DNA from: Bacteroidota bacterium
Lineage (GTDB): Bacteria; Bacteroidota; Ignavibacteria; Tepidaquicellales; Tepidaquicellaceae
NCBI GenBank assembly: GCA_018266845.1
Contig: JAFDZO010000029.1
Coordinates: 1-64,000, forward strand
Reading direction: 5' to 3'
Length of the DNA stretch: 64,000 nt
The notes under the pieces were generated by a model. That model was not told the DNA's origin and searched no databases. It worked only from the letters and a program-made list of their open reading frames with translations. This document shows, in pieces, positions 2,074 through 60,831 of this stretch. Position numbers and translations under genes: made by a program. The first letter of the stretch is position 1. Every line of letters starts with the position of its first letter.

Positions 2074-3540
2074 TTACACCAGCGTTTTATACAGACCGGT
2101 ATATTTTTTTGCTGAAACCTTCCATGAGAAATCCAGCGACATTCCGTTCCGCAAAATCTTATTCCATTTATCTTTATCTTCGTAAAGATTCAGCGCGGTT
2201 TTTATGGTATCTAAAAATTCTTTTGTACTGTATTTATTAAATAAAAATCCGTTGCCGTTCGGTTTTTTATAATCTATTATCGTATCTGCCAGCCCGCCTG
2301 TGTTTCTTACAACCGGAACAGTTCCGTATCGCAGACTGTACATCTGGTTCAGTCCGCAAGGTTCGTACTTTGAAGGCATTAAAAACATATCAGAGCTTGC
2401 CTCTATTTTATGGGCAAGAACCTCATCGAATCCGATTACAATAGCCAGCTTGTCTTTATATTTTTTCTCGATTGCCTTGAGGAATTTCTGATACTTTTCA
2501 TCTCCCTGTCCGAGGATAATCATGTGAACGTTTTCTTTCATAAGCTGAGGAAGAGCTTCTTCGATTAAATCAAATCCCTTTTGAGCTACAAGGCGTGAAA
2601 TCACTCCGATAAGGGGAGTGTCTTCGTTATAATCAATTTTGAAATGGCTTAAAAGCTCGCGTTTATTTTCCCACTTGAGTGGGATTTCCTGTGATGTAAA
2701 TCTGTAGTCAATCAGCTTGTCAACTTCAGGGTTCCACACGGAGTAATCTATTCCGTTTAAAATTCCCGATAAATCTTTTTTTCTTTTATCGAGAATGTCT
2801 TCCATTCCTTCGGAGTATTCTTTATCGGTCCTTATTTCCTCAGCATATTTTTCACTTACAGTTGTAATTTTATCGGCATATGCCAGAGCAGTTTTCATAT
2901 AGCTGAATTTTCCATTATGGCTGCCTGCCTCAAACACTTCATCCGGCATTCCGGTTTTTGCAAAAGATGTTTTTGGAAAAATTCCCTGATATGCAAGATT
3001 GTGAATGGTGAAAACTGTTTTAATATCCCTGATGTATGGATTATCTTTGTAGATTGTTTTTATGAAAGCGGGAATAAGCCCCGTCTGCCAGTCGTTGCAG
3101 TGAATGACATCAGGTTTCCATTGGAGAATTTCAAGAATTTCAAGCACTGCTTTACAGAAAAAAAGATAGCGCTCGTCGTTGTTTGAGAAATCCTGCTTGG
3201 TTTTTATATTCTGGTAAATTCCTTTATTCTTAAAAAAATCAAGATTTTCGAGGAGATAAATTTGTGCTTTCGTATTTTTTCCGTGAATGAACGAAGATTT
3301 TATGCTGAACTTCGTTTCTATTCCGTTCATTTTCAGGGATAAGTCTTTAAGTCTTTTTATTTCGTGTATCTGCAGTCTTCTTTCATCCAGCTGACCGTAC
3401 TTGGGGCTAATAATTCTTACTTCATTTCCTAAAGAGTTAAGAGCCTGGGGTAATGAATTTGAAACATCAGCTAATCCTCCTGTTTTAGAATACGGAAAGA
3501 CTTCACTTGTTACAAAAAGTACATTATAACCTTTTGCCAT
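2074..3540 (-). CDS. glgA: Glycogen synthase (ADP-glucose), GT5
   Basis: 488 residues, full length for bacterial GlgA, which transfers glucose from ADP-glucose to growing alpha-1,4-glucan in the cytoplasm. The N-terminal GT5 domain opens with VLFVTSEVFPYSKTGGLADV, containing the KTGGLADV nucleotide-sugar site at residues 19-26. The HCNDWQTG stretch and the C-terminal GT1 domain follow, with FLMPSKYEPCGLNQ (conserved E-x7-E region) and NTGGLADT. The ATG at 3540 gives the standard MAKxxNVLFVTSEV start. Two consecutive TAA codons end it. No other glg gene is nearby. It runs away from the T9SS gene at 3865 and shares its upstream region. Confidence 0.96.
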   Translation of the reverse strand: MAKGYNVLFVTSEVFPYSKTGGLADVSNSLPQALNSLGNEVRIISPKYGQLDERRLQIHEIKRLKDLSLKMNGIETKFSIKSSFIHGKNTKAQIYLLENLDFFKNKGIYQNIKTKQDFSNNDERYLFFCKAVLEILEILQWKPDVIHCNDWQTGLIPAFIKTIYKDNPYIRDIKTVFTIHNLAYQGIFPKTSFAKTGMPDEVFEAGSHNGKFSYMKTALAYADKITTVSEKYAEEIRTDKEYSEGMEDILDKRKKDLSGILNGIDYSVWNPEVDKLIDYRFTSQEIPLKWENKRELLSHFKIDYNEDTPLIGVISRLVAQKGFDLIEEALPQLMKENVHMIILGQGDEKYQKFLKAIEKKYKDKLAIVIGFDEVLAHKIEASSDMFLMPSKYEPCGLNQMYSLRYGTVPVVRNTGGLADTIIDYKKPNGNGFLFNKYSTKEFLDTIKTALNLYEDKDKWNKILRNGMSLDFSWKVSAKKYTGLYKTLV

Positions 3541-3864
3541 TAAAGAATAGTTTTTTTAGAAATTACTTTTATTTTGTGTGATTTTCAATGAAGAAAGGGG
3601 GCACAAACAGGAAAAATAGTCATCTCAAGGATTAGCGTTTTGTTTTTAAAATTGCCGCAGAATATGCCATTTCTATAAAATCAGGCATTATCAGAAAAAC
3701 AACGTGGCAGCTATTAAACGTGCACCTAATCAGTGCGTTATATCTCCTGTGAGTTGAATAAGGTAAGAGCAGATTTGTTAATAAAAATATTAATCTTTAT
3801 ACTTCTTTCATTACTTTTTTTTTCCTCTTAATTTTATACTTTACTTGCAACTAATCCCATAATT
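3541..3864. other. 324-bp divergent intergenic region
   Basis: No gene, tRNA or strong repeat is visible. The segment must carry the promoters of leftward glgA and the rightward T9SS gene. A weak stem (ATGCC at 3664-3668 with GGCAT at 3684-3688) is the only structure I see. The 100 bp next to the T9SS gene are very AT-rich, ending in TTATACTTTACTTG about 25 bp before the start, which could be part of a promoter; I cannot define boxes with confidence. Confidence 0.4.
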
Positions 3865-5604
3865 ATGAAAATAAAATTTTACTTCTTTTCTTTAATTCTC
3901 CTGCTTGTTGCGGGTGTTTCTTATTCGCAGTGGAGTGTTGACCCGAACACAAATACTCCCGTGTGCACAGCAACGGGCGAGCAGGCAGTGCCGAAAATTT
4001 CTCTTACTTCCGACGGCGGATGCTATATAACGTGGTTCGATAACAGAAGCGGCAGCTATGCGGTTTACCTGCAAAGGCTAAACTCGGCAGGTGTGCCTCA
4101 GTTTACAGCTAACGGACTTCTGATAAGCAGTAATGCTCAAAATACTTCGCTTGTTGACTGGGATATGATTACTGATGACAGCAACAATGCAATCATTGCC
4201 TTTACTGATATTCGCGCAGGCGGTCAGATAAATCCTTACATATATAAAATCTCTCCCACAGGAACTTTCCTATGGGGAGCAAACGGAATTTCGTTAAACA
4301 GCCAGTCATCTGTTTTTCAGGCAAACCCCAAGCTCGCCAAGTGCACGGGCAATAATATTTTTGTAACATGGATTTATTCATCCTCTCCGAGAGTTGCAAA
4401 GTATCAAAGAATCTCCCCCGGAGGAGTAAAACAGTTTGCCGCTGACGGCTTGTCAATTTCAGGAACGGGTTCAGAAGCGATTGATTTTCCTAATGTGGTT
4501 ACATCGGATAATGGAAGCGCAATAATGACATTTATCGGATATACGGGCAGTTTCATCAGTCCGGGAAATTATAAAATTTATACACAAAAGATTTCATCTA
4601 ACGGCGGCTCTGTATGGAACGCAAATTTTGATACAGTATATTCTTTAGGAAGAGGCTCAGGGTTCAACCCTCCTCAAACAAACAGCGATGGTAATAACGG
4701 ATTTGTAATATGCTGGCAGGACGACAGAAGCTCGACTAATGCTTCTAATGTTTATGTTCAGAGAGTAAACGCAGCCGGACAGAAACTATTTCCTGTAAAC
4801 GGAAGCGCAGGCGATGTAACGGCAGGTATGGTGAGAAACACAATGCAGGCATGCGTTAATACAACTACGAACGAAACATTTATGTTCTGGAAAGAAGCAA
4901 ATGGCGGACAAACTCAATATTCCTGCGTAGGGCAAAGATTTTCAGCAGCGGGAGACAGGCTTTGGACGGATGCCGGACTGAACGTAATTCCTATGGGAAA
5001 TAACTCTTTTGTAACCTTAGATTGTCAGTCAGTAGATACAAACGCTGTTGTTTATATTAATGATGGTGTTTTCGGAAGCTCAAATAATATCGTCAGGGCT
5101 GCTAAGTTTAATAGAAGCGGTTCTATCGCATGGAACAGCGGAGCCCTTATGACTATAGGCGGTTCAACAGGCGCAAAATCCAGAATGGCTGCCAAAATAA
5201 ACTCAAACAAAATGAGCATCGTAATGTGGGGCGATTCCAGAAGCGGGATATACGATATATATGCGCAGAACATTAACAACAACGGAACATTAGGACCCGC
5301 AACAAACATTCAGCAGATTTCAGGCGAAACACCAAACGGCTTTGAACTGAAGCAGAACTTCCCTAACCCGTTCAACCCGACAACAAATATTGTTTACAGC
5401 CTGAAAGTAAATTCGGCTGTTACAATAAAAGTTTATAATACACTCGGCAAAGAGGTTACGGCGGTAAGCTTCGGAATGCAGAATGCAGGAAGCTATTCAT
5501 ATTCTTTAGATGCAGGCGCTTTGAATTTATCAAGCGGTATTTATTATTATGCAATTCAGGCAGGCGACTTCAAAGATATAAAGAAAATGATGCTTGTTAA
5601 GTAG
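3865..5604 (+). CDS. Secreted repeat protein with type IX sorting domain
   Basis: 579 residues. Signal peptide at residues 1-21 (hydrophobic FFSLILLLVAGVSYS, cleavage before Gln22). The body carries degenerate repeats of the type W-x-D-x-R-S-G-x-YxVYLQR-x-x-x-x-G, clear examples being DNRSGSYAVYLQRLNSAG, DDRSSTNASNVYVQRVN and DSRSGIYDIYAQNINNNG. They suggest beta-strand blades, probably a propeller or beta-solenoid. From about residue 497 there is a T9SS C-terminal sorting domain: ELKQNFPNPFNPTTNI, then VYNTLGKEV and SSGIYYYAIQAG ending in KKMMLVK. The protein should cross the outer membrane through T9SS and be surface-anchored or released. Function of the repeat region is unknown. It stands alone between two repeat-bearing gaps. 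Confidence 0.85.
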   Translation: MKIKFYFFSLILLLVAGVSYSQWSVDPNTNTPVCTATGEQAVPKISLTSDGGCYITWFDNRSGSYAVYLQRLNSAGVPQFTANGLLISSNAQNTSLVDWDMITDDSNNAIIAFTDIRAGGQINPYIYKISPTGTFLWGANGISLNSQSSVFQANPKLAKCTGNNIFVTWIYSSSPRVAKYQRISPGGVKQFAADGLSISGTGSEAIDFPNVVTSDNGSAIMTFIGYTGSFISPGNYKIYTQKISSNGGSVWNANFDTVYSLGRGSGFNPPQTNSDGNNGFVICWQDDRSSTNASNVYVQRVNAAGQKLFPVNGSAGDVTAGMVRNTMQACVNTTTNETFMFWKEANGGQTQYSCVGQRFSAAGDRLWTDAGLNVIPMGNNSFVTLDCQSVDTNAVVYINDGVFGSSNNIVRAAKFNRSGSIAWNSGALMTIGGSTGAKSRMAAKINSNKMSIVMWGDSRSGIYDIYAQNINNNGTLGPATNIQQISGETPNGFELKQNFPNPFNPTTNIVYSLKVNSAVTIKVYNTLGKEVTAVSFGMQNAGSYSYSLDAGALNLSSGIYYYAIQAGDFKDIKKMMLVK

Positions 5605-41430: not shown

Positions 41431-42762
41431 TTATTTCAACCTATACGCTATCGCTTCTCTTGGTTCAGGAACATGATGTCCTACACCTCCGCCGCGTTCA
41501 TCGTCAAACGAATCCGGAATATCTCCAGCAATTGTTCTTTCCTTCCATGTAAGATGCTCATTACCTGCATCTCTTCTCTGCATTGTAATACAATTTTCTA
41601 CAGGACAAACAAGTGAACACAAGTTACATCCGACACAATTCTCCTCTATAATGTGCGGTTTTCTATCTTCCGGATTTTCTGATAATCCTATAGCTTGGTG
41701 AGCGCCGTCATCACATGCTATATAACAAAGCTGACATCCGATACATTTATCCTGATTAATATCAGCAACAATTTTATACTTCAAATTGAGATTTTCCCAT
41801 GTATTAATATTGGGCAATGCTCTTCCAACCATTTCATCAACACTGTTAAATCCTTTATCAATCATATACTGCTCAAAGCCGGCAAGAATTTCTCTGATAA
41901 TTCCGAAGCCGTAATGCATTACTGCAGTACATACCTGCACTGTGCTTGCGCCCAATAAAATAAACTCAACTGCATCTCTCCAGTTTTCAACTCCGCCTAT
42001 TCCAGAAATTGGTAAACCGTAATTTGGAATCTTAGCAACGTTCTTCAAAAGATTCAGGGCAATTGGTTTCACTGCAGGACCGCAGTATCCGCCGTTTGTG
42101 CTATGTCCGTCAACTTTCGGATACGCAGTAAAATTATCTATATCAAGCCCCACAATACTTTGTATCGTATTAATTAGTGATACAGCATTTGCGCCGCCTG
42201 CTTTTGCTGCAAGTGCAGGGTCTTCAATGTGAGAAATATTCGGAGTGAGTTTTACTATCACTGGTTTTTTTGCAACTTCCATAACCCAGCCGACAATAAG
42301 CTCAAGAATTTTCGGGTCCTGTCCTACTGCAGAGCCCATGCCTCTTTCGCACATTCCGTGAGGGCAGCCGAAGTTAAGTTCGTGTCCGTCTGCTCCGGCA
42401 TTCTCTGCATCCTTCACAATCTGATGCCATTGCTCTCTGGATTCCACCATAAGCGAAGCTATCACTGCATGGTCAGGGAAATACTTTTTTACCTCTTCTA
42501 TTTCACGAAGATTATCTTTTAAAGGCCTGTCTGAAATAAGCTCAATATTATTAAAGCCCACCATTCTGCTGTCACGGTAATTTACGGAGCCGTATCTGCT
42601 TGATACATTTACAACCGGAACGCCTAAAGTTTTCCATATTGCTCCGCCCCATCCTTTATCAAACGCTTTCATTATCTGGTAACCTGAGTTAGTCGGTGGT
42701 GCCGATGCCAACCAGAACGGATTGGGTGATTTTATTCCGGCAAAATTTACACTTAAGTCCAT
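41431..42762 (-). CDS. preA: NAD-dependent dihydropyrimidine dehydrogenase, subunit PreA
   Basis: 443 residues. FMN-binding dihydroorotate-dehydrogenase-like barrel at 1-330: NFAGIKSPNPFWLASAPPTNSG, catalytic Cys in NFGCPHGMCERGMGSAVG, SGIGGVENWRDAVEFILLGASTVQVCTAVMHYG. The C-terminus has two [4Fe-4S] motifs, CIGCQLCYIACDDGAH and CVGCNLCSLVCPVENC. With PreT it reduces uracil and thymine to the 5,6-dihydro forms (reversible in vitro). Cytoplasmic heterotetramer in E. coli. Order preT-preA matches the E. coli operon. A palindromic repeat lies in the preT-preA gap. Confidence 0.96.
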   Translation of the reverse strand: MDLSVNFAGIKSPNPFWLASAPPTNSGYQIMKAFDKGWGGAIWKTLGVPVVNVSSRYGSVNYRDSRMVGFNNIELISDRPLKDNLREIEEVKKYFPDHAVIASLMVESREQWHQIVKDAENAGADGHELNFGCPHGMCERGMGSAVGQDPKILELIVGWVMEVAKKPVIVKLTPNISHIEDPALAAKAGGANAVSLINTIQSIVGLDIDNFTAYPKVDGHSTNGGYCGPAVKPIALNLLKNVAKIPNYGLPISGIGGVENWRDAVEFILLGASTVQVCTAVMHYGFGIIREILAGFEQYMIDKGFNSVDEMVGRALPNINTWENLNLKYKIVADINQDKCIGCQLCYIACDDGAHQAIGLSENPEDRKPHIIEENCVGCNLCSLVCPVENCITMQRRDAGNEHLTWKERTIAGDIPDSFDDERGGGVGHHVPEPREAIAYRLK

Positions 42763-42818: not shown

Positions 42819-44135
42819 TTATTTTTCTAAATAAGAAAGAATTGCCTTTCCTGCGAATTTTCCTTCGTAAGCTGCGTTAACAACTTCAGCGCCTCCGTTC
42901 ATGCAGTCGCCTCCGGCAAAATATTTCGGATTCGATGTCTGATAATTATTAGTCTTCACTTTATTCTTAACCATTTCAAGGTTGGAAATTTTATCAAAAA
43001 GATAATCGTGATTTTTTTGTCCCGTTGCTAAAATTACCATATCGCATTCTTCAACAAATTCAGTTCCCGGTATTGTTACAACTTTTCCGTTCTTCGTTTT
43101 TGTCTTAATAAACTTAACAGCGTTAGCAGAGCCGTTGCCCATAATTTCAAGAGGAGCTGCATTGAAAATTCCTTTTACGCCTACTTCTTTTGCAAGCTCG
43201 TATTCAAAATGATAAGCGCCCATTTCTTCTTTAGAGCGGCGGTAAATAAGTTTCACGCTTGCTGCTCCCATTCTTGCAGATTCTGATGCTGCATCCATTG
43301 CAGTATTTCCTCCTCCAAGAACAATAACTTTATTTCCGAACGCAGTATTATAATGCTCTTTTCTGAGAACTTCAATCAGCTCAACTGCTCCGTGAACATT
43401 TGTTTTATCTTCACCGGGGATATTTAACTTTGATGTTTCGCCGTTACCTACTCCGAGGAAAATTGCGTCATAATTTTTTTCAAGCTTTTCTATATCATCA
43501 GCTGTTTCAATTTTGCTGTTATATAAAATATTAAATCCGAACTGTGACTGAAGGTATGCAAGCTCTTCAAGTACTTCATCGTTTGTAATTTTGTATGGAG
43601 CAATTCCGTTCACCGTTAAGCCCGTTGCGTTTGACCTTGCCTCGTAAATATCTACATGCACGCCTTCTTTTCTAAGCTCACATGCGCAGGCAATTCCAGC
43701 AGGACCAGAGCCGATAATAGCAACTTTTTTGCCGTTGGATTTTCCTGCCGAATAAAACTTTATATCATTTCTGATTGCGCTTGTTGTCGCATAATTCTGC
43801 AGGCGTCCGATCTCAATCGGCTTTACATCCTGAAGATTATATACGCAAGCACCTTCGCAAAGAACTTCAGTCGGGCAGACTTTTCCGCAGGCATTGCCGA
43901 AATAATTTGAATCGTAAATTGTTCTGGCTGCACCCTTGATATTGTTTGTATTGATCTGTCTTATAAAAAGCGGAATATCAATGTGCGTAGGGCATGCCTC
44001 AACGCAGGGAGCGTTATAGCAGAAAAGACATCTGGAGCTTTCATAGTAAGCTTCAGTGTTATTCATTAATGGTTTTATCTGTGCAAAGTTTTGCTCAAAT
44101 TCCTGTTCGTTCACAGGACGGTTGTATTCACTCAT
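42819..44135 (-). CDS. preT: Dihydropyrimidine dehydrogenase flavoprotein subunit PreT
   Basis: 438 residues, GltD-like. N-terminal Fe-S domain with CLFCYNAPCVEACPTHIDIP and GNACGKVCPTEVLCEGACVYN (two [4Fe-4S] clusters). FAD Rossmann motif VAIIGSGPAGIACACEL, NAD(P)H motif VIVLGGGNTAMDAASESARMGA followed by YRRSKEEMGAY, and C-terminal FAGGDCMNGGAEVVNAAYEGKFAG. Passes electrons from NADH to PreA. ATG at 44135 gives MSEYNRPVNEQEFEQNF. Directly upstream (right) is the four-helix-bundle cassette, whose arm begins about 5 bp from this start. Confidence 0.95.
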   Translation of the reverse strand: MSEYNRPVNEQEFEQNFAQIKPLMNNTEAYYESSRCLFCYNAPCVEACPTHIDIPLFIRQINTNNIKGAARTIYDSNYFGNACGKVCPTEVLCEGACVYNLQDVKPIEIGRLQNYATTSAIRNDIKFYSAGKSNGKKVAIIGSGPAGIACACELRKEGVHVDIYEARSNATGLTVNGIAPYKITNDEVLEELAYLQSQFGFNILYNSKIETADDIEKLEKNYDAIFLGVGNGETSKLNIPGEDKTNVHGAVELIEVLRKEHYNTAFGNKVIVLGGGNTAMDAASESARMGAASVKLIYRRSKEEMGAYHFEYELAKEVGVKGIFNAAPLEIMGNGSANAVKFIKTKTKNGKVVTIPGTEFVEECDMVILATGQKNHDYLFDKISNLEMVKNKVKTNNYQTSNPKYFAGGDCMNGGAEVVNAAYEGKFAGKAILSYLEK

Positions 44136-52411: not shown

Positions 52412-52581
52412 TTTACTTAAAAATATTTAATTTTTGACTGAATATTGAGTATAGTGAAAATTTTCTTATAAAAAAATACTCTTTTGTGGAGTTTACACTC
52501 TGCGAAATAAGTGCAAAAAATAAGTCAATTATTATTTAAAAAATTTAAAAGTATATTTAATAACAACTATTTTTTCCACGT
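52412..52581. promoter_or_regulatory. Divergent promoter region, pyrimidine operon and giant flavoprotein
   Basis: 170 bp between two starts facing apart. AT-rich, with a small inverted repeat GAGT-TTAC-ACTC at 52489-52500 and GAGTAT/ATACTC at about 52447-52480. These are candidate operator sites for shared control, unproven. 'TATTGAGTATAGTG' echoes the arm unit of the four-helix cassette. Confidence 0.45.
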
Positions 52582-55500
52582 ATGAATGAAAATATTCTAA
52601 ATCCAAAATTCGGATATACCTATGCCGATTTATTCTTAAGCGAAAAATTAAGGGCGCTCGCTGATGATTTTTATAAATATTTTGAAAAAGAAAACCCTCA
52701 GAAATTTGAGGAATTTAAAAAATACCGTGATTCAAAAGGTGAGGGCTTCACCTACATTCAGGCATCTGAAGTGATAATGAATTCAAGCGTGTATGTCTCA
52801 TCTTTTTTAGGCGAATTATTCAATGTGCAGGAGCATTTGAAAAATTATGTAGATGAAGCGCAATACAATGAAGATATATTTTTATTTAAAAAAGAATTTG
52901 TCCAGAGAAAAGTTTTCCGCCGCTTTAAGCCGGAAGACCTTGAAAAAATAAACTGGCTTGAGCTTGATGCTTTTATAACCAGAATAAAAAAGTGTTTAGC
53001 AGACCAGATAGATTTTACCGTGGATGAGGAAAAATATACGGCGCGATTTGTAAACGAGCTTGCAGAGCTTGAAAAAAATTACAGATGGTTTTATGAAGGC
53101 GATAAATTCGCTCCCGAAAATTTTCAGATTCCTGAAAAATATACCGCCTGCGCAACAAAATTAATTTCAGAAGTACGTACTGACAGCGGACTTGGAGCAG
53201 ATAAAGATTATGACAATGTGAAGTTCCTGATGAATAAAGTAATGGAATGGGTTTATGCAAAACGTTTCTTTGATAAAGATGCAGCAAAATGGGTTTCGTA
53301 TTTTGAGCCGGAGAAGCTGGATTTTGATCATTTAGTTCATGTTGAAATTCCCGATGCAGCTTTCCCCCAAAAAATGGAAGGAGATGAAAACCATTTTATT
53401 CAGAGAAAAGGATTTGAGCTGCACGATCACAGAATGAGCGAAAGGCAGATTTTGAATCAGGTTGATTACTGTATGTATTGCCACGATAGGGAAAAAGATT
53501 CCTGCTCAAAAGGTTTACACGATAGATTCGGCGCTCTGAAGACTAACCCTCTGGGAATTGAGCTTACCGGATGCCCGCTTAACGAAAAAATTTCAGAGGC
53601 GCATTTATTAAGAAAAAGTGGTTTTCCTCTTGCTGCAATGGCTATTGTTGCAATTGATAATCCTATGTGCCCCGGTACAGGGCATAGAATTTGCAATGAT
53701 TGTATGAAGGGCTGCATTTACCAGAAACAGGAACCGGTGAACATTCCTCAAGTAGAGACTAATACACTTAGAGATACCATAAACCTTCCTTACGGCTTTG
53801 AGATTTATACATTACTTACAAGATGGAATCCCATTAATATAAAGCGTCCTTATGCGTTAGATTATAACGGCAAAAATGTTTTAGTTGTTGGTCAGGGTCC
53901 GGCGGGATATACGCTTGCTCATCATTTATTAAATGAAGGATACGGCATAGCAGCAATTGATGCGCTGAAAATTGAACCGATATTCGGTGAGTACACAGGA
54001 ATAAATCCCGCTACAAACGAAAGAACCGAACATAAGGCAGTAAAAGATTTTAATAAGGAAATTGTTCAGGAGCTTGATAAAAGAATTTTGCAGGGATTCG
54101 GCGGCGTAACCGAATACGGAATTACCGTGCGATGGGATAAAAATTTTCTTTCGATGATTTATATTAATCTTGCAAGAAGAAAAAATTACAGATTGTATGA
54201 CGGCGTGAGATTCGGCAGCTCGGTTACAGTTGACGAAGCATGGCAAATGGGCTTTGACCACATAGGTTTAGCCGCAGGAGCAGGACAACCGACTATTGTG
54301 AACATGAAAAATAATCTTGCAAAGGGGGTAAGAAAATCAACGGATTATCTTATGTCATTGCAGCTTTCAGGTGCAAGTAAAGATGACAGCCTTGCAAGTA
54401 CGATGATTCAACTTCCCGCAGTTATTATCGGCGGCGGGCTGACTGCAATTGATACAACCACTGAAACAGCAGCGTATTATCCCGTACAGGTGAAAAGAGT
54501 ATTGGATAGATATGAGAAAATTTCCTCGGAAAAGGGTGAAGAATTTTTCTGGAGTGCTTTCAATGAAGAAGATAAGGAAATAATAAAAACTTTCATTCAG
54601 CACGGTAAAGAAGCGAGAGGCGAAGAAGAACTTGCAAAGCTTGAGAATAGAAAAACGAATTACATTAATCTGATAAGAAAGTGGGGCGGAGTTTCGCTTG
54701 TATATCGCAAGAGAATGCAGGACTCTCCGGCGTACAGATTAAATCACGAAGAGATAAAAGAAGCGCTTGAACAGGGAGTATATTTTATTGAAAATTTATC
54801 GCCGACAGAAATTGCAAAAGATAAATTCGGCAGGGCAGAAAAAGTTATCTTTGAAAAGCAGACCGTTGAAACTACGGAAGACGGCAAAATAAAACATAGA
54901 AACAGCGGAGAGTTTATCGAGCTTCCTGCAAAGACAGTGCAGGTGGCAGCAGGAACTGCACCAAACTCTATGTATGAATACGAAAATCCGAATACGTTTT
55001 TACTCGATGATAAATGGCAGTATTTCAAGACTCATAAGTTAGTTAAAGATGAGTCGGGAAAGTTTTCGCTTGAAGAAGTGCCCGTAAAAGAAGACGGATT
55101 TTTTACCTCGTATAATAAAGAAGGAAAGTTTGTTTCGTTCTACGGCGACTGTCATCCGAAATATGTTGGCAGCGTAGTTAAGGCAATGGCATCTGCAAAG
55201 AAAGGTTCCAGACAGGTAATAGAGCTTTTAGAAAATGAAAGTTCAAAGTTTTCAAGTGCAGAAGAATTTTTTACGAAGACAAATGAAGCTTTTATTTCAA
55301 CAGTGCAATCACTGAAAAAATTAAATGAAAGAACTTTAGAACTTGTTGTAAAAAATAGAGCCGGAGCGGAGAAATTTAAACCGGGACAGTTCTTTAAATT
55401 ACAAAACTACGAAGTTCTTGCTGATAAAAAGAATGGAATAACAAAAACCATCGAAGGTGTTGCGTTAGCTCCAGCAAATGTAAATAAAGAGAACGGACTT

Positions 55501-56223
55501 ATTAGTTTTGTCGTAGTAAAAGAAGGTGTTTCGAGTTCTTTGATTGAAAACCTTAAAGAGGGAGAAAAAATATTTTTAATGGGACCGACCGGCACTCCTT
55601 CAAATATTCCCGAAGGAGAAAATGTTTTAATTGCAGGCGGCGGTTCGGGCAATGCCGTGCTTCTATCAATTGCAAAAGCATTGAAAGAAAAAAATAATAA
55701 TATTCTTTACTTTGCAGGATATAGAAGTAACGATGATGTGTTTGATAAAAATGTGATTGAGGAGGTAAGCGATGAAGTAGTATGGTGCTCGGAAGAGGGT
55801 GAAATAAATCCGGCTCGTAAACAGGATACATTTTTCAGAGGAAATATTATAGAAGGAATTAAAAATTATACTTCTTCTCATAAAGATTTAAAGAGCATAA
55901 GTAAAATTATCACTGCGGGAAATCCCTCAATGATGAAAGAAATTCGTGATGCAAGGAAAACTTTCTTGAAAGAATTTTTAAATGGTCATGATGCAGTTGC
56001 AAATATGAACAACCCAATGCAGTGCATGATGAAGGCAATATGCGGTCAGTGTTTGCAAAGAAATGTAAATCCCGAAACAGGAAAAGAGACAATGGTTTAT
56101 TCGTGCGAGTGCCAGGAACAAAAGCTTGATGAAATTGATTTTTTAAATCTGGAAGAGCGCCTTGGAATGAATGCTTCTATGGAAAAGCTAAACAGATTGT
56201 ATTATGAATGTTTTGTAAAATAA
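52582..56223 (+). CDS. Giant flavoprotein: GltD/NfnL-like plus PyrK/NfnS-like fusion
   Basis: 1213 residues, no signal peptide. Residues 1-285 are helical with no domain I know. Next is a GltD-like Fe-S part: Cys297, Cys300, Cys308 and Cys331 (GCPLN), then Cys363, Cys371, Cys374, Cys378 (MCPGTGHRICNDCMKGC). FAD motif VLVVGQGPAGYTLAHHL lies near 432 and a second Rossmann motif AVIIGGGLTAIDTTTETA near 613. From about 925: ferredoxin-reductase domain with FKPGQFFKLQN, LMGPTG and NVLIAGGGSGNAVLLS. It ends with a C-x5-C-x2-C...C set (QCMMKAICGQC, YSCEC, about 1145-1175) like PyrK/NfnS [2Fe-2S]. The order resembles NfnL joined to NfnS, so bifurcating electron transfer is possible. Large similar oxidoreductases exist; role unproven. 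Confidence 0.82.
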   Translation: MNENILNPKFGYTYADLFLSEKLRALADDFYKYFEKENPQKFEEFKKYRDSKGEGFTYIQASEVIMNSSVYVSSFLGELFNVQEHLKNYVDEAQYNEDIFLFKKEFVQRKVFRRFKPEDLEKINWLELDAFITRIKKCLADQIDFTVDEEKYTARFVNELAELEKNYRWFYEGDKFAPENFQIPEKYTACATKLISEVRTDSGLGADKDYDNVKFLMNKVMEWVYAKRFFDKDAAKWVSYFEPEKLDFDHLVHVEIPDAAFPQKMEGDENHFIQRKGFELHDHRMSERQILNQVDYCMYCHDREKDSCSKGLHDRFGALKTNPLGIELTGCPLNEKISEAHLLRKSGFPLAAMAIVAIDNPMCPGTGHRICNDCMKGCIYQKQEPVNIPQVETNTLRDTINLPYGFEIYTLLTRWNPINIKRPYALDYNGKNVLVVGQGPAGYTLAHHLLNEGYGIAAIDALKIEPIFGEYTGINPATNERTEHKAVKDFNKEIVQELDKRILQGFGGVTEYGITVRWDKNFLSMIYINLARRKNYRLYDGVRFGSSVTVDEAWQMGFDHIGLAAGAGQPTIVNMKNNLAKGVRKSTDYLMSLQLSGASKDDSLASTMIQLPAVIIGGGLTAIDTTTETAAYYPVQVKRVLDRYEKISSEKGEEFFWSAFNEEDKEIIKTFIQHGKEARGEEELAKLENRKTNYINLIRKWGGVSLVYRKRMQDSPAYRLNHEEIKEALEQGVYFIENLSPTEIAKDKFGRAEKVIFEKQTVETTEDGKIKHRNSGEFIELPAKTVQVAAGTAPNSMYEYENPNTFLLDDKWQYFKTHKLVKDESGKFSLEEVPVKEDGFFTSYNKEGKFVSFYGDCHPKYVGSVVKAMASAKKGSRQVIELLENESSKFSSAEEFFTKTNEAFISTVQSLKKLNERTLELVVKNRAGAEKFKPGQFFKLQNYEVLADKKNGITKTIEGVALAPANVNKENGLISFVVVKEGVSSSLIENLKEGEKIFLMGPTGTPSNIPEGENVLIAGGGSGNAVLLSIAKALKEKNNNILYFAGYRSNDDVFDKNVIEEVSDEVVWCSEEGEINPARKQDTFFRGNIIEGIKNYTSSHKDLKSISKIITAGNPSMMKEIRDARKTFLKEFLNGHDAVANMNNPMQCMMKAICGQCLQRNVNPETGKETMVYSCECQEQKLDEIDFLNLEERLGMNASMEKLNRLYYECFVK

Positions 56224-59469: not shown

Positions 59470-60831
59470 CTGTCAAAACTTAAAAGCAAATACGTATGCC
59501 AGAACTGCGGACACTCAACTCCGCGATGGAGCGGCAAGTGTCCGGAGTGCAGCTTATGGAATACTCTTGTCGAGGAAATTGTAGATATAAAAAGCGAAAA
59601 AATTTCCCGTAAGAATGAACTCAAAAGCCAGAGCGCAAATATAAAAATTCTCAGCGAAGTTGAAAGTTCGGCTGAAGACAGAATAAGAACCGGAATTTTA
59701 GAGTTAGACAGAGTTCTGGGCGGCGGAATTGTAAGCGGCTCGGTAATTTTAATAGGCGGCGACCCCGGTATAGGAAAGTCAACTCTTATGCTTCAGATAG
59801 CCGATAAAATAAAAGACAGAAAAATTTTATACGTCAGCGGTGAAGAATCTGCTTTGCAAATAAAGATGCGAAGCGACCGCTTAAATTATCACCTCGAAAA
59901 TTTTTATATTCTATCCGAAACAAATCTTGATATAATTCAGGCAGTAATTGATAGCGAAGAACCGGAATTAATTGTGATAGATTCAATCCAAACTGTTCAC
60001 CGCAACGACATAGAAAGCGCTCCCGGCACTGTTTCGCAATTGCGCGAATCAACTGCACTGCTGATTAATATTGCAAAAACGAAAAACATCCCTATATTTG
60101 TAGTCGGGCATATTACCAAAGACGGCATGATTGCCGGACCGAAAATTCTTGAGCACATGGTTGATGTTGTCCTTCAATTTGAAGGTGAGCGTACTCATGC
60201 TTACAGAATTTTGCGCGGAATAAAAAACCGTTTCGGCTCTACAAATGAAATTGGAATTTTTGAAATGAGCGAGACAGGTCTGAACGAAGTAAAAAACCCC
60301 AGTGAAGTTTTTTTATCGCAGAGAAATTACGGCGCTTCCGGTTGCAGTATTTCATCAGCAATAGAAGGAACACGCCCGATTTTAATAGAAGTTCAGGCGT
60401 TGGTTTCTGCGACCAGCTATGGCATTCCGCAGAGAACATCAATGGGATTTGATTATAAGCGGCTTAATATTCTGCTTGCCGTTCTTGAAAAGAAACTCGG
60501 CTTTCATCTGAATAAAGCCGATGTATTTCTGAATATTGCAGGCGGCGTAAAAATAGATGAGACGGCAATTGATTTAGCAGTTGCGATGAGTATATGCTCG
60601 AGCTATAAAGATATTCCGATTGATTCGGAAACTGTTATACTTGGGGAAATCGGTTTATCGGGAGAGGTGAGAACAATTTCCTATCTTGAGAAAAGAGTTA
60701 ATGAAGCTGTAAAGCTTGGCTTTAAGAGAATACTTGTTCCGAAAAGCAATCTGAAGGGTTATGAGAAAAATAAAAACTTTGAGATAATAGGAATTGAAAA
60801 AATAAAAGATGCCCTGGATAAACTCTTCTAA
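59470..60831 (+). CDS. radA: DNA repair protein RadA, non-ATG start
   Basis: 453 residues from CTG at 59470. Zinc finger YVCQNCGHSTPRWSGKCPECS, Walker A GGDPGIGKST, RadA motif KNRFGSTNEIG, and a Lon-like C-terminal domain. Promotes branch migration in recombination. The frame is open back to 59452, but there is no ATG, GTG or TTG before the zinc finger; the first ATG (59788) would delete the zinc finger and Walker A. CTG at 59470 gives (M)SKLKSKYVCQNCG, matching normal RadA starts; ATT (59455) is the other option. A non-standard start or an A-to-C base change are both possible. Confidence 0.95.
   Translation: MSKLKSKYVCQNCGHSTPRWSGKCPECSLWNTLVEEIVDIKSEKISRKNELKSQSANIKILSEVESSAEDRIRTGILELDRVLGGGIVSGSVILIGGDPGIGKSTLMLQIADKIKDRKILYVSGEESALQIKMRSDRLNYHLENFYILSETNLDIIQAVIDSEEPELIVIDSIQTVHRNDIESAPGTVSQLRESTALLINIAKTKNIPIFVVGHITKDGMIAGPKILEHMVDVVLQFEGERTHAYRILRGIKNRFGSTNEIGIFEMSETGLNEVKNPSEVFLSQRNYGASGCSISSAIEGTRPILIEVQALVSATSYGIPQRTSMGFDYKRLNILLAVLEKKLGFHLNKADVFLNIAGGVKIDETAIDLAVAMSICSSYKDIPIDSETVILGEIGLSGEVRTISYLEKRVNEAVKLGFKRILVPKSNLKGYEKNKNFEIIGIEKIKDALDKLF

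Follow-up and report, generated by a model that had tools for sequence, protein, structure and literature searches.

We analysed a 64,000-nucleotide stretch of a Bacteroidota bacterium genome (positions 1 to 64,000 of contig JAFDZO010000029.1, assembly GCA_018266845.1; hereafter the window). It carries a gene for a 1213-residue flavoprotein in which a helical head, a module resembling the NfnL subunit of NfnSL (the L module) and one resembling NfnS (the S module) lie on a single chain. We find it probable that this fusion protein works like NfnSL; on that reading it is an NAD(P)H-ferredoxin oxidoreductase built on the Nfn plan. Its substrates, its direction and whether it bifurcates electrons are points that we infer. 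Within a large uncharacterised family, the window protein is nothing out of the ordinary: the single-chain layout, noted in a preliminary description of this DNA, turned out to be shared by many proteins related to the NCBIfam model PRK06567. The family, rather than the window protein, is the object of interest.

An Nfn-type fold and its cofactor ligands on one chain

As the preliminary description had claimed, the 1213 codons form a single uninterrupted open reading frame (ORF), from ATG to stop, and the window genome holds one copy of it. We modelled residues 14-1210 with AlphaFold2 (AF2) from 78 sequences (predicted local distance difference test (pLDDT) 90.5, predicted template modelling score (pTM) 0.91). 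Structural comparison with VIA aligned the L module (model residues 226-872, window residues 239-885) to NfnL (5jfc_L) at Z 27.5 (447 of 463 residues aligned, 2.7 Å), and the S module (model residues 886-1197) to NfnS (4yry_C) at Z 14.4 (258/265 residues, 2.5 Å). Structure prediction had been proposed earlier as a check, and in the model both an NfnL-type and an NfnS-type fold were recovered in one chain. Profile-profile alignment with hhalign, using NfnL and NfnS alignments built from the genomes in this analysis, matched the family to NfnL at E 8e-30 and to NfnS at E 5e-29. Together with the fold, this bears out the earlier assignment of a two-cluster GltD-like module followed by an NfnS/PyrK-like one.

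We examined conservation in 78 usable rows, comprising the window and 77 of the best 80 loci among at least 568 relatives; L064, L090 and L102 were dropped as too short. A further 42 rows comprised 13 Pseudomonadota, 22 relatives (five of them on contigs already represented among the 78), five joined split pairs and two proteins with L only. By hhalign, C297, C300, C308, C331, C371, C374, C378 and E392 pair with the cluster ligands of NfnL, and these seven Cys and one Glu, together with R517, were invariant in 78/78 rows and in 42/42 further rows. R517 falls on the Arg that a passage of Liang 2019 (PMC6405883) describes as bonding N5 and conserved in all Nfn. In a regular-expression check, this position read GIP(E/D/R)FR in 11/14 NfnL, GIP(D/E)FK in 8/8 GltD and GIAPYK in 5/8 PreT, the pattern having matched elsewhere, and left the residue unread, in NfnL L133, L146 and L147 and PreT L182-L184. 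Judged from these alignments, R517 is the Nfn-like Arg, where GltD and PreT carry Lys. At the predicted NADP 2'-phosphate position, which has two Arg in Nfn, R709 is invariant across the 78 rows, and residue 710 is K in 60 rows and R in the other 18. The four Cys of the putative [2Fe-2S] site were invariant as well (78/78 rows, and 40/40 further rows with an S module), and the S-module NAD motif was intact in 78/78 nearest members. The likeness to NfnSL thus takes in the L and S folds, the eight [4Fe-4S] ligands, the N5-type Arg, two Rossmann folds and an FNR-type S module with a C-terminal [2Fe-2S] cluster.

From this build we propose a soluble NAD(P)H-ferredoxin oxidoreductase, NfnSL-like and on one chain. 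NADP(H) would exchange at the L-module flavin adenine dinucleotide (FAD), which R517 would hold. Ferredoxin would stand at the end of one electron path, reached by way of the two [4Fe-4S] clusters, and a second path would lead through the [2Fe-2S] cluster and the S-module FAD to NAD(H), at the GGGxGN site in most members. In aerobic carriers, such an enzyme would set the NADPH/NADH/ferredoxin balance, supplying or draining reduced ferredoxin.

The N-terminal head was the most divergent part, with a mean column identity of 31% and three invariant residues (F75, F80 and E150). Folded alone (AF2, residues 1-243), it gave a confident helical bundle (pLDDT 94.3). Neither Foldseek (best E 1.5) nor VIA (best Z 4.5) found a solved-structure match, which does not in itself prove a new fold. 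The head would serve as a partner or assembly domain.

Family membership, database name and split genes

PRK06567, or NF005128 (putative bifunctional glutamate synthase subunit beta/2-polyprenylphenol hydroxylase), matched the whole fusion protein at E 2.4e-190 and 635 bits, with its best stretch at residues 23-771. This lies under the curated cut-off of 1072 bits, which was also passed by 0/59 relatives and by 0/349 genomes from the phylum of G491; 16 of those 349 matched the model at E<=1e-40. In a six-frame search, the matching stretches in the ORF spanned model positions 17-1030 of 1031, covering head, L and S; thus the two are homologous over that range, with lengths of 1213 and 1031 residues, and the head belongs to the PRK06567 family. 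The preliminary description had spoken of an unknown 285-residue head: a head is indeed present, but it measures about 238 residues and is known to databases as that of PRK06567. In Pfam, only Pyr_redox_2 scored over its cut-off, with Fer4_20 and FAD_binding_6 below theirs. PRK12778, PRK12779 and PRK06222 also matched the C-terminal part, PRK12779 at 111 bits against a curated cut-off of 1519.

Fused NfnS and NfnL, with either one leading, have already been published, as passages of Liang 2019 (PMC6405883) record. The 'Pattern C' homologs described there are uncharacterised and likewise carry their S-type domains at the C-terminus; they differ in length, being given as exceeding the short fused forms by about 200 residues, which makes about 950. 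Pattern C possibly corresponds to PRK12779, for which no member over the cut-off was found in the 199 genomes searched. PRK12778, a 752-residue NfnS-NfnL fusion and probably the 'Pattern B' of that scheme, also has both modules on one chain; unlike the window protein, it places S ahead of L and lacks the head. We found nothing further on the fusion family in the PMC literature searched.

When genome contigs were scanned by degenerate pattern, using the family alignment, at least 582 stretches turned up, of which at least 568 were confirmed relatives. The best 80 loci lie in records titled Ignavibacteria, Acidobacteria, Myxococcales, Planctomycetota, Nitrospirota, Gammaproteobacteria and others. 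Most lineages carrying the family are aerobic, the genera Myxococcus, Polyangium, Pyrinomonas and Methylomonas among them. Of the plasmids, one record, Acidithiobacillus caldus pTcM1, has a member, which is 37% identical. An enzyme of Nfn architecture, with cluster ligands and N5-type Arg kept across mostly aerobic lineages, contrasts with the conclusion of Poudel 2018 (PMC6085437) that, Fix apart, aerobes have almost no bifurcating enzymes. The family apparently lies outside earlier bifurcation surveys, a gap that its divergence and misleading name would explain. One carrier, a metagenome-assembled genome titled 'Acidimicrobiia' (L096, G479), looks mislabelled; the phylum sample centred on it includes G457 and G480, which stand behind records titled Blastocatellia and Acidobacteria.

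In some genomes the chain is encoded in two pieces. The split fell inside the L-FAD fold, between about residues 820 and 840 (split zone about 826-838), in 5/5 split genomes examined, with the halves at two distant loci in G095, G241, G261 and G365 and as adjacent ORFs in G056. Four more (G253, G269, G296 and G376) showed matching split ranges by profile search only. The S polypeptide of the split forms begins with the FFTSY...GDxHPxYAGxVVKAMASAK segment, which by structural alignment is the end of the NfnL fold. As the end of the L-FAD fold sits on the S chain, gene structure and fold alignment together imply that the two halves must assemble in these genomes. They offer a natural test of L-S docking.

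Weighing the functional readings

Several observations weigh against an NfnSL-like function. The cluster motifs are YCx2Cx7Cx22CPL and GHRICx2Cx3C rather than the RCx2Cx4Cx3CPV and GRVCPQExQCx3C of Nfn; passages of Liang 2019 (PMC6405883) give these motifs and describe an atypical Asp that ligates the [2Fe-2S] cluster. That Asp, carried by DGTGMCGxCR in Nfn and by DG(T/M)GMC in 12/12 NfnS from the genomes in this analysis, is replaced by Cys in 78/78 family rows, and the ERxPx(T/S) motif found in 12/12 NfnS occurs in 0/78, the family having EGxAxT in place of ERxPxT. As it departs from Nfn in the spacing of the cluster ligands, at ERxPxT and in the Asp ligand, we do not file the family as Nfn. 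It further differs from NfnSL in being one chain in the order head-L-S, with a 22-residue stretch between C308 and C331 and insertions of about 40 and 66 residues. GltD chains fit the L fold nearly as well as NfnL (VIA, Z 25-26). Among 45 L modules placed in an unrooted tree, with group labels that we assigned, the family formed one clade (100/100), joined by a 3.2-long branch to NfnL, GltD and PreT and nested in none of them; the phylogeny named earlier as a check, run on the L module, thus did not place it within NfnL. The S-module NAD(P) glycines are degenerate in at least three distant members, L020 (G011), L123 (A. caldus) and L251 (G834), which retain their FAD and [2Fe-2S] residues. Genomes G004, G014 and G018 encode head and L only, with no S-module match elsewhere in them by profile search (G018 by search alone). 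Given these losses, NAD coupling cannot be universal. The 80 nearest loci contained no operon-like recurrent neighbour (ORFs of at least 100 residues) and, within 5 kb, no Cx2Cx2Cx3C ferredoxin-type ORF (0/80); in at least 14/80 loci the ORF caller chose antisense ORFs instead of the family gene, so some neighbours there may have been missed. Finally, mostly aerobic carriers are ill suited to a low-potential bifurcating enzyme.

At residue 963, the Thr of EGxAxT is present in 77/78 rows, with Ala only in the window row (55468-55470). The window congener G001 also reads GVALA, i.e. Ala at this position.

The family might have replaced NfnSL functionally lineage by lineage, carriers using it where sister lineages use NfnSL. 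We regard this idea, which is compatible with the NAD(P)H-ferredoxin oxidoreductase proposed above, as plausible but doubtful. Among 59 genomes, NfnL (TIGR01316 over cut-off) occurred in 20 and the family in 30, a count that includes the L-only G004, G014 and G018, contig-broken genomes and a partial, weak match in G039 (213 bits). Only G053 had both; 29 had the family only, 19 NfnL only and 10 neither (Fisher 2e-7). Genomes with strong COX1 gave 1/28/12/10 in the same order (p 4e-5), and elsewhere NfnL over cut-off was found in 5/50 carriers (50 of the best 80 loci). Mutual exclusion, strong by Fisher, did not survive an rpoB tree of 57 genomes, where 5 independent contrasts gave no signal. 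In the f1 sample the pattern is a single split between two groups, and in G053 the nfnS and nfnL genes and the fusion gene follow one another on the same strand (L124 6086-12401). We therefore treat the exclusion as suggestive only. PntB tended weakly to occur together with the family (16/14/7/22, p 0.03).

Less likely, in our view, is a non-bifurcating NAD(P)H:ferredoxin or protein reductase, in which L would pass NADPH electrons to ferredoxin or to a siroheme sulfite or nitrite reductase. The S module would then be regulatory or an alternative entry point, by analogy with what may hold for Pyrococcus furiosus NfnII. The degenerate NAD glycines of L020, L123 and L251, the three genomes with head and L only, and the cysI-operon and NirA neighbours described below are consistent with such an enzyme. 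So is the four-Cys site: all-Cys ligation should lower the [2Fe-2S] potential relative to Nfn, which makes a non-bifurcating or differently tuned transfer quite possible. Against it stands the NAD motif, intact in all 78 nearest members. In addition, an NF010029-type siroheme reductase was not found at E 1e-20 in the window genome (G000) or four relatives (G001, G011, G014 and G029), so a siroheme acceptor is not general. The Asp-to-Cys difference offers a clean handle on the role of the [2Fe-2S] potential in bifurcation.

A bolder form of the NfnSL-like reading, which strikes us as rather unlikely, makes the family a further, oxygen-compatible class of flavin-based bifurcating transhydrogenase. 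Such a head-L-S Nfn, found in Ignavibacteria, Acidobacteriota, Myxococcota, Planctomycetota and Proteobacteria, would let aerobes make low-potential ferredoxin from NADPH. The ferredoxin would serve NirA, CysI or ferredoxin-linked carbon metabolism, the all-Cys [2Fe-2S] cluster would sit in the high-potential branch, and the helical head would be of a new fold.

The database name implies that the L module feeds glutamate synthase, which we consider very improbable. NCBIfam uses this name for the family, a Neorickettsia annotation repeats it, and the fold is close to GltD (Z about 26); GltD and PreT share the L-module fold and the cluster ligands. However, both have Lys at the N5 position, lack an S module and form clades apart from the family, and the GltD small-subunit models TIGR01317 and TIGR01318 scored about 31 bits each, far under their cut-offs of 448 and 483. 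A glutamine amidotransferase domain was not found in the chain with Pfam. The name is probably wrong, and it has already propagated: a section of the Neorickettsia genome paper (PMC5481527) uses it in an argument for glutamine use. The Neorickettsia protein concerned lies outside the sequences compared here.

The least credible reading, which we judge highly improbable, makes the fusion protein a redox partner of PreTA, the link that the preliminary description had proposed together with a shared promoter. The divergent operon indeed begins 170 bp away, and congener G001 keeps this arrangement. However, among the 59 genomes the neighbourhood was confined to G000 and G001, the two genes were not linked in 8 other genomes holding both, 20/30 carriers lacked PreT, and G006, G007 and G028 had a PreT-like gene without the fusion. 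PreT-like labels rest on ORF length and score and, for nine genomes including the window genome, on a tree or our grouping by it. Of 15 order-mates (f2), 13 had the fusion with no TIGR01316-type match at E 1e-20. In the L-module tree, PreT and the fusion family each separated at 100/100, the family falling outside the PreT clade. Promoter-like matches in the 170-bp gap were near chance (3 found, 1.9 +/- 1.6 expected), which does not support a shared promoter, and we rejected the preTA link.

Feature coordinates and neighbouring genes

Table 1. Features of the fusion gene and its surroundings in the window.
Feature	Position	Strand	Basis or remark
Whole gene, Nfn-like fusion, divergent PRK06567 relative	52582..56223	+	ORF and NCBIfam profile match, 1213 residues
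N-terminal all-helical head, residues 1-238	52582..53295	+	AF2 of residues 1-243, Foldseek, VIA
L module, residues 239-885, NfnL/GltD-type flavoprotein fold	53296..55236	+	VIA, hhalign
Ligands of two putative [4Fe-4S] clusters, C297 C300 C308 C331 C371 C374 C378 E392	53470..53757	+	Conservation, alignment to NfnL ligands
FAD Rossmann motif, residues 431-445	53872..53916	+	Profile and alignment
R517, aligned with the Nfn Arg that bonds the bifurcating FAD at N5	54130..54132	+	hhalign, conservation
Second Rossmann motif GGGLTAID, predicted NADP(H) site, residues 617-624	54430..54453	+	Alignment
Family-specific helical insertion of about 66 residues in the NADP domain, residues 635-700	54484..54681	+	Gap in NfnL (hhalign), AF2 helices
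Zone of gene split in other genomes, about residues 826-838	55057..55095	+	Split-gene comparison
Last strand/helix of the L-FAD fold, FFTSY..YGDxHPxYxGxVVKAMASAK, residues 840-875	55099..55206	+	Structural alignment
S module, residues 905-1210, NfnS/PyrK-type	55294..56211	+	VIA to 4yry_C, hhalign
EGVALA, residues 958-963, at the place of NfnS ERxPxT	55453..55470	+	Alignment
Four-Cys putative [2Fe-2S] site, C1148 C1154 C1157 C1175; C1148 at the place of the NfnS Asp	56023..56106	+	Alignment, conservation
Divergent intergenic gap, 170 bp, to an aldehyde dehydrogenase gene	52412..52581	.	ORF positions
PreT	42819-44135	-	Far end of divergent operon
PreA	41431-42762	-	Far end of divergent operon; named by us from sequence

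The most recurrent neighbour among the 80 nearest loci was a protein-kinase-like paralog group, at scattered positions in 9/80; other neighbour clusters recurred in at most 7/80, and those 7 hold an unrelated gene. The neighbours that follow are suggestive of the proposed NAD(P)H-ferredoxin oxidoreductase; they are few, partly from close relatives and chosen after the fact. On A. caldus pTcM1, fdxA lies directly upstream of the family gene, at 127-149 nt. Genes for a PRK08275 fumarate-reductase-like flavoprotein, a small 4Fe-4S protein, a HEAT-repeat protein and FdxA precede the family gene there (L123 5516-8798), a row that is possibly a mobile redox operon. In G554, cysI, a cysG N-terminal-type gene, cysH, cysD and cysNC stand in tandem with the family gene, which follows 3 nt on; a CysJ-type ORF was not found between these genes. 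Genes read from sequence as cysH-D-N-like lie three to five genes upstream in G593. A NirA-family gene is divergent to the family gene in two Planctomycetota, at 543 nt (L059) and 476 nt (L085), and lies 7.9 kb away in L086. The korAB genes are next to the family gene and convergent with it in G697 and G539, and fdxA is five genes away in G834.

Elsewhere in the window, radA (59470-60831, + strand) has no ATG, GTG or TTG that would cover its N-terminal zinc-finger and Walker A part. Its frame is open from a CTG at 59470, 10 nt after a histidine-kinase gene. The CTG is also present in congener G001 (L143 about 3418-4770, - strand), and a conserved CTG start for radA is likely.

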